From assembly GCF_003003775.1 (NCBI RefSeq), contig NZ_PVWJ01000034.1, forward strand, positions 1 to 42,752: a stretch of 42,752 nt of DNA. Direction: 5' to 3'. Shown one piece after another: positions 24,128 to 39,628 of this stretch (positions within the stretch are counted from its first letter, which is position 1; the number at the start of each line of letters is the position of its first letter). The stretch comes from Merismopedia glauca CCAP 1448/3. GTDB taxonomy: Bacteria > Cyanobacteriota > Cyanobacteriia > Cyanobacteriales > CCAP-1448. The position numbers and the translations under genes were made by a program. Below the pieces are notes generated by a model, which was given only the letters and a program-made list of their open reading frames with translations, made no database searches and was not told where the DNA came from.

Positions 24128-24159
24128 CTAATAATCACCCAATCTAGCAAAATCTTTCT

Positions 24160-24195
24160 GTAGAGACGTAGCCCTGAGCAAAGTCGAAGGGCTAC
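24160..24195. repeat. GTAGAGACGTAGC-family repeat, copy 2
   Basis: GTAGAGACGTAGCCCTGAGC then AAAGTCGAAGGGCTAC. The inner arms GTAGCCCT (24168-24175) and AGGGCTAC (24188-24195) form a perfect 8-bp hairpin. It ends just before the rubredoxin stop. Confidence 0.6.
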
Positions 24196-24199
24196 ATCT

Positions 24200-30157: not shown

Positions 30158-30160
30158 AGA

Positions 30161-30197
30161 AGTAGCACTTCGGCTTCTTTCAATGCTACGTCTCTAC
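30161..30197. repeat. GTAGAGACGTAGC-family repeat, copy 3 (minus orientation)
   Basis: Reads GTAGAGACGTAGCATTGAAA on the minus strand and then GAAGCCGAAGTGCTACT. It follows the dispersed repeat and is followed by a CTTCCTT heptamer tract. Confidence 0.6.
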
Positions 30198-37437: not shown

Positions 37438-39090
37438 ATGTCTGAAGTCTTTGCTGAAGAACAGCTTTTATTTACACCAGTTACTCCCAGCAGTGATGCG
37501 ATCGCCACTATTTTTGCCTTCCCTAATGCCTACAATGTGGGAATTACAAGTTTGGGGTATCAGGTAGTTTGGGCGACCTTGGCTGGGCGTTCTGATGTGG
37601 CTGTGAGTCGTTTATTTACAGATGCCAGGGAACTTTTACCCAGAGATCCTGAGTTGGTCGGTTTTTCCCTGTCTTGGGAATTAGATTATGTAAATATTCT
37701 CAACCTGTTGGAGTCTTTAGAGATTCCGATTCGTGCGGGCGATCGCACTGACTCTCATCCTATTATCTTCGGTGGGGGTCCTGTTTTGACAGCTAATCCC
37801 GAACCATTTGCTGACTTTTTTGATGTGGTTTTGTTGGGGGATGGAGAAGAACTTTTAGGCAATTTCATCGAAGCTTACAAACAAGTTCGTAATAGTAGTA
37901 GAAACTCTCAATTAAGATATTTAGCTACAGTTCCAGGTTTGTATATTCCTAGTTTATATGAAGTGAGTTATGAAACCGGAAATACGGGAGCGATCGCTTC
38001 TATTCAACCTCTAGATTCTGCGATTCCTGCAACTGTGGAAAAGCAAACTTATCGAGGCAATACTCTATCTGTTTCTACAGTTGTTACTCCCAAGGCTGCA
38101 TGGGAAAATATTTATATGGTAGAAGTAGTGCGTAGCTGTCCAGAAATGTGCCGTTTTTGCTTAGCTAGCTACCTGACTTTACCATTTCGGACGGCGAGTT
38201 TAACAGATGGGTTGATTCCAGCAATTGAGAGGGGTTTAAAAGTAACTAATCGCTTGGGATTGTTAGGTGCTTCTGTAACTCAACATCCTCAATTTGATGA
38301 GTTATTAGATTATTTAAATCAACCTCAATATAAAGATATTCGCCTCAGCATTGCATCAGTTCGGACTAATACAGTCACAGAAACTTTAGCAAGAACTTTA
38401 GCTAATCGAGGTACGCGATCGCTGACTATTGCAATTGAAAGTGGTTCGGAACGTATCCGTCAAATTATCAATAAAAAGCTGGAACAAAACGATATTATCC
38501 AAGCAGCAATTAATGCTCAAAAAGGCGGATTAACTGGTTTAAAAATATATGGAATGGTAGGAATTCCTGGAGAAGAAACAGAAGATATAACGACAACAAT
38601 TTCCTTACTGAAAGAGATGAAAAAAGCTGCTCCCAAACTACGTCTGACTTGGGGATGTAGCACTTTTGTACCTAAATCCCATACCCCATTTCAATGGTTT
38701 GGAGTCAACAAAAATGCAGAAAAACGGTTAAAATTGTATGAAAAAGAATTGCGGAAAATCGGGATAGAATTTCGTCCAGAAAGCTACAATTGGTCAGTGA
38801 TTCAAGCCTTGATATCGAGAGGCGATCGCCGTCTATCTAAACTCTTAGAATTAACTCGTGAATATGGTGATTCTTTAGGTAGTTTTCGCCGTGCTTTTAA
38901 AGAACTAAAAGAACAAATACCTCCGCTTGAATACTACGTTCATCAAGATTGGCATACTGAACAAGTTCTACCTTGGCATCATCTTCAAGGTGCTTTACCA
39001 GTTAGCACTTTAACCAAACATTTTAATGAAGTCACAAAAGTAGGTTGGGTTGACAATAGAAAACCCAAATTTAATTTTGTAGAGACGTAG
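37438..39090 (+). CDS. B12-binding radical SAM protein
   Basis: A 550-residue enzyme. The N-terminal part (about 1-170) has the cobalamin-binding layout (VTSLGYQ-like NVGITSLGYQVVWATLAG, FGGGPVLTANPEPFADFFDVVLLGDGE). The radical SAM core contains the cluster cysteines C234, C238 and C241 in VVRSCPEMCRFC, then IAIESGSERIRQIINKKL, KIYGMVGIPGEETEDI, and TWGCSTFVPKSHTPFQW. The substrate is unknown. Start ATG 37438. The last codons (KVGWVDNRKPKFNFVET) and the stop TAG lie within or next to a palindromic repeat and a direct repeat at 39055-39132; without that insertion the frame would continue differently (see findings). Confidence 0.9.
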   Translation: MSEVFAEEQLLFTPVTPSSDAIATIFAFPNAYNVGITSLGYQVVWATLAGRSDVAVSRLFTDARELLPRDPELVGFSLSWELDYVNILNLLESLEIPIRAGDRTDSHPIIFGGGPVLTANPEPFADFFDVVLLGDGEELLGNFIEAYKQVRNSSRNSQLRYLATVPGLYIPSLYEVSYETGNTGAIASIQPLDSAIPATVEKQTYRGNTLSVSTVVTPKAAWENIYMVEVVRSCPEMCRFCLASYLTLPFRTASLTDGLIPAIERGLKVTNRLGLLGASVTQHPQFDELLDYLNQPQYKDIRLSIASVRTNTVTETLARTLANRGTRSLTIAIESGSERIRQIINKKLEQNDIIQAAINAQKGGLTGLKIYGMVGIPGEETEDITTTISLLKEMKKAAPKLRLTWGCSTFVPKSHTPFQWFGVNKNAEKRLKLYEKELRKIGIEFRPESYNWSVIQALISRGDRRLSKLLELTREYGDSLGSFRRAFKELKEQIPPLEYYVHQDWHTEQVLPWHHLQGALPVSTLTKHFNEVTKVGWVDNRKPKFNFVET

Positions 39091-39132
39091 CAGTGCTACG
39101 TCTCTACAGAAGTTAGAATAGAAAACCCAAAT
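39055..39132. repeat. 16-bp direct repeat flanking a palindromic repeat
   Basis: AATAGAAAACCCAAAT stands at 39055-39070 and again at 39117-39132, 62 bases apart. Between them a near-perfect palindrome at 39078-39108 (TGTAGAGACGTAGCA, one base, TGCTACGTCTCTACA) belongs to the GTAGAGACGTAGC family. The radical SAM stop codon TAG (39088-39090) lies inside the palindrome. Confidence 0.8.
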
Positions 39133-39178
39133 ATATTATAAGTTCCCCAAAATAAGATTTTTTCCTAATACCGAACTA

Positions 39179-39628
39179 ATGCTGCATTTTGAATATTCAT
39201 CTTTAATCGAAGCACCAGTAGATATTGTTTGGAAGTTTTATGAAAGAGAAGATATTTTACAACTTCTTACCCCTCCTTGGCAACCTGTAGAGGTTATCCG
39301 TCATCAAGGAAGATTAGATGTGGGCGCAATTTCTGAATTTAAGTTGCATTTAGGAATAATACCGATAACTTGGATCTCGACTCATACTCAATGCGAACCA
39401 AAACGGCTATTTGTAGACAAACAAACTGAAGGGATTGTGAATTATTGGGTACATCGCCATGAGTTTATCTCATTAGGAGATCAGACTAGATTAATAGATG
39501 CGATCGCTTATTCTTTACCAGGTAATTGGTTAGCTGAATCTCTGATTGGTTGGTGGGTAAATTCCCGATTAGAAGATATGTTTTGCTATCGACATCGCGT
39601 GACTCAACGAGAATGTGAAGTCAGATAA
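39179..39628 (+). CDS. SRPBCC family protein
   Basis: A 149-residue protein with the START-like pattern FEYSSLIEAPVDIVWKFYEREDIL, PPWQPVEVIRHQGRLDVGA, FKLHLGIIPITWISTHTQCEP, NYWVHRHEFISLGDQTRLID and a C-terminal helix WLAESLIGWWVNSRLEDMFCYRHRV. Similar proteins are labelled cyclase/dehydrase or cell-division inhibitor-like in cyanobacteria; function unknown. ATG 39179. Confidence 0.82.
   Translation: MLHFEYSSLIEAPVDIVWKFYEREDILQLLTPPWQPVEVIRHQGRLDVGAISEFKLHLGIIPITWISTHTQCEPKRLFVDKQTEGIVNYWVHRHEFISLGDQTRLIDAIAYSLPGNWLAESLIGWWVNSRLEDMFCYRHRVTQRECEVR

Follow-up and report, generated by a model that had tools for sequence, protein, structure and literature searches.

Palindromic repeats and a 16-nt duplicate at the 3' end of a radical SAM gene in Merismopedia glauca

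Very small dispersed repeats of cyanobacterial genomes, reportedly considered mobile by Elhai et al. 2008, are one setting for the locus described here. Another is the class of GTAG-tagged REPs, which have GTAG at one end, a short stem and many dispersed copies, mostly just 3' of genes, and which are described in cyanobacteria, with loops of 9-15 in GTAG-15 (Di Nocera, De Gregorio and Rocco 2013, PMC3733652, in the parts drawn on here). According to the same parts of that paper, these REPs can sit within ORFs, their GTAG termini often give flanking ORFs the TAG stop, and Rickettsia palindromic elements (RPE) are translated within proteins. The TnpA-REP proteins, which are related to the IS200/IS605 transposases, cleave and join single-stranded DNA, and the movement of very small repeats is called poorly understood in the abstract of PMC8266576. 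In the window, by which we mean the whole 42,752-nucleotide stretch analysed, two palindromic repeats, REP1 and REP2, are found where a B12-binding radical SAM gene ends.

Structure of the gene end

37438..39090, + strand: B12-binding radical SAM gene in its present reading (ORF, 550 aa, TAG stop)
39040..39068, + strand: REP2, a GTAG-tagged imperfect palindrome, GTAGGTTGGGTTGACAATAGAAAACCCAA, encoding VGWVDNRKP (54 strand-hits in the genome)
39055..39070, + strand: 16-mer AATAGAAAACCCAAAT, copy 1, made of the right half of REP2 and two bases
39071..39116, + strand: 46-nt insert, TTAATTTT + REP1 palindrome + AGAAGTTAG (from sequence and RNA fold)
39079..39107, unstranded: REP1 palindrome, GTAGAGACGTAGCAGTGCTACGTCTCTAC, with 54 exact copies in the genome
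39088..39090, + strand: present stop codon TAG, within REP1, in the frame V-E-T-stop
39117..39132, + strand: 16-mer AATAGAAAACCCAAAT, copy 2, with the private changes of copy 1
39133..39155, + strand: putative old 3' end of the frame, to the TAA at 39153-39155, without the 62 nt

The radical SAM gene matches TIGR03960 (E 7.8e-88; 295.5 bits, below the curated NCBIfam cut-off of 462.3), and the match stops at residue 532 of a 550-residue protein whose C-terminus reads ...VDNRKPKFNFVET. Across 39029-39160 the order is the KHFNEVTK codons, which are the last to align with orthologues, then REP2, two bases, TTAATTTT, REP1, AGAAGTTAG and the second 16-mer; the downstream open frame begins at 39179. 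It had been proposed in the initial annotation that a palindromic repeat provides the present last residues and stop of this gene, and the sequence supports it: the 16-mer lies at 39055-39070 and again, 62 bases on, at 39117-39132, and the TAG at 39088-39090 falls inside the palindrome 39078-39108, which is self-complementary at 30 of 31 positions around an odd centre. With the 62 nt removed, the frame does run on to the TAA at 39153-39155 and gives 551 aa, ending NRKPKYIISSPK (...VDNRKPKYIISSPK). Since the conserved part of the enzyme stops before the tail, the protein is probably still functional.

What that annotation had not noticed is that the first 16-mer belongs to REP2, a dispersed repeat distinct from REP1. 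The motif GTAGGTTGGGTT...AACCCAA gives 54 strand-hits in the genome, usually in the form GTAGGTTGGGTTGACGATAGGAAACCCAACA, as judged from 30 loci set side by side, and REP2 is found in 33 of 59 relatives (own genome left out). It has the many dispersed copies of a GTAG-tagged REP and also the unpaired tag, with GTAGG followed by TTGGGTT ... AACCCAA and GUAG unpaired in the minimum-energy fold. The window copy is a private variant of ...GACGATAGGAAACCCAA, with GACAATAGAAAACCC in place of GACGATAGGAAACCC and the end AAAT in place of AACA. VGWVDNRKPK was therefore repeat-encoded already before REP1 arrived. The NRKPK earlier taken for the original tail is itself encoded by REP2, so the gene end has been rewritten at least twice, by different repeats.

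REP1 is likewise dispersed and of high copy number, with 54 exact copies of the 29-mer and 104 sites under a looser pattern, and by the strict pattern it is present in 3 of 59 relatives (own genome left out). In the stem its GTAG is base-paired, the partner being CTAC, and for this reason we call it no more than a GTAG-ended palindrome. REP1-like arms around a different inner sequence also occur in the window at 24156-24199 and 30158-30197. At five other loci (L168, L179, L187, L199 and L201) REP1 adjoins CAGAAGT heptamer arrays, in the common context AGTCATTC-REP1-AGAAGT, and the frames at L168 and L199 end RSHS-stop.

The second 16-mer is a true local duplicate of the first. The 16-mer has two sites only in the window, counting both strands, with unlike adjacent bases on either side, and of the 19 genome matches to the pattern ATAGRAAACCCAAMW, 17 have the common form while the private form is confined to the two sites in the window, so the second 16-mer derives from the first and did not arise as a separate REP2. 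A chance origin is very unlikely: when the same flank geometry is slid along the window, a 16-nt repeat appears in 1 of 1152 placements, namely this site, and otherwise none exceeds 11 nt, and 3000 Markov-1 pairs give at most 10 nt.

The stretch 39036-39140 folds as RNA at -35.3 kcal/mol (shuffled mean -13.3, z -8.1). Because the arms TTAATTTT (8 bases) and AGAAGTTAG (9 bases) also pair in this fold, with one bulge and G-U pairs, nearly the whole 46-nt insert is a single hairpin; there is no T run downstream, which makes it unlike an intrinsic terminator. Between 38500 and 39700, Rfam returned no known structured RNA, the one entry reported, ncr1575, scoring 25.3 bits where the gathering score is 60.

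Repeats in other genes and in orthologues

Eight open frames, the window's and seven others, end in or at REP1 among the 54 exact copies, a rough figure, for which frames were taken as open stretches of 120 codons or more, with neither a gene caller nor a random control; in one of the eight (L169) the overlap is the last base of the stop only. No frame reads through REP1 at any of the 54 copies, and 34 more end at most 60 nt before it. NCBIfam names five of the seven other frames (zeta-carotene desaturase, KdsB, sulfate adenylyltransferase, peptide deformylase and FolC) and leaves two unmatched. Five frames, including the window's, end VET-stop, since GTA GAG ACG TAG is the reading of REP1 in that frame. 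The repeat-supplied stop of the radical SAM gene is thus ordinary, a fresh instance of a known effect. At a further locus (L165; C13, 50,325 and 50,931) a pair of REP1 copies, separated by about 600 nt, terminates two neighbouring frames, both with VET-stop, one of them being the zeta-carotene desaturase (NCBIfam).

REP2 is also read in frame. Among 46 copies, by the same rough count of open frames, three frames end inside it and four, including the window's, read through. In mfd (L154/L233; C27, ~11,400) a REP1-like palindrome is followed 12 nt on by REP2, both in frame, DVAVLRLADKEVGWVDDRKP, with REP2 in the same reading frame as in the radical SAM gene, giving VGWVDDRKP. The linker that holds both is variable among relatives, and the matches of most relatives break there, so mfd was rejected as a clean example of insertion. 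In a thymidylate-synthase-like protein (L147/L280; C21, ~42,650) REP2 reads VGWVDEGNP and replaces a short loop of 11 aligned orthologues, all of them without REP2. Elsewhere (L150; C23, ~36,030), a REP2 copy and 30 nt lie between two copies of TATGAGCATTT, the flanking repeat starting exactly at the GTAG of REP2.

Orthologues of the radical SAM gene were read to their stops at 109 loci (the best 80 of 486 places plus 29 loci; 107 distinct proteins), two of which, L029 (G001) and L039, appear to come from the same genome. Conservation stops at about residue 531 and the tails beyond are variable; none of the 109 contains RKPK, GWVD or IISSP. The ending RKPKYIISSP, which had been predicted for orthologues, thus occurs at none of these loci. 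This is a weak refutation, given an unconserved tail and a nearest orthologue found that is 77% identical, and since the tail is unconserved its absence neither proves nor disproves an insertion. That nearest orthologue (L039, Cyanosarcina radialis, same family; 77% amino-acid identity) ends KHLAIAL-stop at the point where REP2 starts in the window, and has a REP2-type repeat of its own, in reverse orientation, about 48-77 nt past the stop. Two others (L055 and L064) have REP1-type motifs at most 150 nt from the stop. Among the 59 relatives, no insert-free genome was close enough to supply an empty site, the nearest being another genus of the family, and at 77% amino-acid identity the empty site is unreadable from it. 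In two orthologues (L041 and L091) the protein ends in a short tandem repeat, EMREMREMREMRR, which is another repeat-made tail.

Origin of the duplicate

We hypothesize, with good confidence, that the 3' end of the gene was overrun by REP2 and then by the 46-nt REP1 hairpin, together with a 16-nt one-off duplicate that is not a fixed target-site duplication. Judging from orthologues, the gene would have ended at about the start of REP2, and the entry of REP2 would have added VGWVDNRKP in frame. The 46-nt REP1 hairpin element and a second copy of the last 16 nt of REP2 would later have joined REP2 at its right end; the structure itself is plain, and the presumed event would have shifted the frame so that the TAG of REP1 became the stop.

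The initial annotation had the 16-bp duplication made by the inserting element, and held that other copies of the repeat should then be flanked by duplications. The first half of this stands insofar as the duplicate is real and local. As an insertion signature it is not supported, since at the 51 other exact copies that could be compared (45 nt on each side, at 52 of 54 copies; L202 and L212, near a contig end, were dropped) flanking repeats do not exceed 12 nt. The copy in the window, at 16 nt, is the sole one above 12. The next longest, of 12, 11 and 9 nt, are heptamer arrays (AGAAGTC or its complement; L168, L197 and L194), followed by one further 9-mer (L214), and the remainder are at most 7 nt. 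Flanks mismatched between copies, our control, give at least 9 nt in 41 of 2652 pairs and at least 16 nt in one, an 18-mer common to the flanks of two other copies; the observed rate of at least 9 nt (5 of 52) is above that of the control, with heptamer arrays accounting for three of the five. In 26 rows of variant REP1, part of the 104 looser-pattern sites, the longest is 9 nt, at L214, there a longer second reading of the site within the 54, and otherwise 8. The 47 REP2 readings, which may count palindromic sites twice, contain one 12-mer (L135), which looks like a short AAGTAAT array, and one 11-mer (L150, starting at GTAG), with the others at most 8 nt; mismatched REP2 flanks reach at least 11 nt in 14 of 2162 pairs. 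A target-site duplication as a rule for REP1 was therefore rejected, as no duplication of similar length occurs at most copies (52 exact, 26 variant and 47 REP2 readings). Flanking duplications at other copies are not the rule among the 52 exact or the 26 variant REP1, an outcome that the initial annotation itself had named as refuting its account of the duplication, and neither REP1 nor REP2 has the similar duplication at most copies expected of a transposable element of this kind.

It thus seems quite unlikely that REP1 or the 46-nt element is transposable and made a 16-bp target-site duplication at the end of this gene. In favour of such an element, the nearly symmetric hairpin insert has an identical 16-mer on each side, and one REP2 copy has an 11-mer; but the remaining 51 exact copies of REP1 that could be compared show nothing of the kind, save for the heptamer arrays and one 9-mer, no long duplication is found among the variant copies, and REPs are described, in the sections of PMC8266576 used here, as moved by TnpA-REP through cleavage and joining of single-stranded DNA. 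Two separate events, in which a short local duplication arose at the end of REP2 and REP1 later inserted between the copies without a duplication of its own, or the reverse order, are an unlikely history. Duplication-free arrival of such repeats does occur, since the REP2 of the thymidylate-synthase-like gene replaces a loop and has no long flanking repeat; against this, REP1 must land exactly between two fresh copies, and almost the entire 46-nt insert is a hairpin whose arms match. Chance or an assembly artefact is hardly credible: the assembly is a draft of 254 contigs, but the null counts (slid window, Markov-1 and mismatched flanks) speak strongly against chance, the site is interior to a contig of 42,752 bases, and repeats of 16 nt spaced 62 apart are presumably short relative to the reads.

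Under the history that we favour, with REP2 followed by the REP1 hairpin, the simplest account of the duplication would be a single accident of hairpin copying or repair: a nascent strand would leave the end of REP2, copy REP1 and its AGAAGT tail from another place, and then re-anneal 16 nt further back. Such re-annealing would fit the AA that the common tail AGAAGTCAGAA shares with the 16-mer at the right junction, although the match is just two bases long. Among the 40 of 230 candidates scored, no donor having both TTAATTTT and AGAAGTTAG as arms was seen; the best left-arm match among these (C24) reads TTTTAATTATA-TAGAGACG, with AGAAATATC on its right side. The 11-nt flanking repeat at the GTAG end of L150 might hint at a duplication-making mode, and counts against a one-off reading.

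TnpA-REP are not known to make target duplications. In a profile search the genome yielded five matches to Y1_Tnp (PF01797), transposase-like genes that might move either repeat; repeats were looked for around three of them, where REP1 is absent and REP2 occurs once. In that region (C181) the match begins 260 nt from the lone REP2, and there is none on its other side in the 3,212 bases examined. The best match (L188; C101, 8771-9121) contains one internal TGA. It is tempting to speculate, though very doubtful, that GTAG-ended cyanobacterial palindromes sometimes insert by DNA copying and leave long duplications that vary in length, with 16 nt in this gene and 11 nt at L150, unlike TnpA-REP, and that a repeat already in place, such as REP2, can serve as the next landing site. 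The unusual 16-bp duplication offers a small clue to how very small repeats move. The last residues of one enzyme are set here by two successive repeats at a single site, where small repeats erode and remake a protein end, and such repeat-made tails should not be taken as conserved function.

Comparison with known systems

Among the literature matches listed for the string GTAGAGACG, none concerned cyanobacterial repeats by title, and a search combining palindromes, C-termini and cyanobacteria returned nothing relevant by title. The repeats of the window, being very small and dispersed, resemble the reportedly mobile cyanobacterial elements of Elhai et al. 2008. REP2 is like the GTAG-tagged REPs, and its loop seems as in GTAG-15, as far as the cited parts of PMC3733652 describe these. 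REP1 differs from the elements described there in being a near-perfect palindrome with its GTAG paired with CTAC, where theirs is an unpaired tag. Measured against the Rickettsia RPE, on the account in those same parts, REP2 in mfd and in the thymidylate-synthase-like protein is alike in being a palindromic repeat read within a protein, whereas in the radical SAM gene the repeat ends the protein instead of lying inside it.
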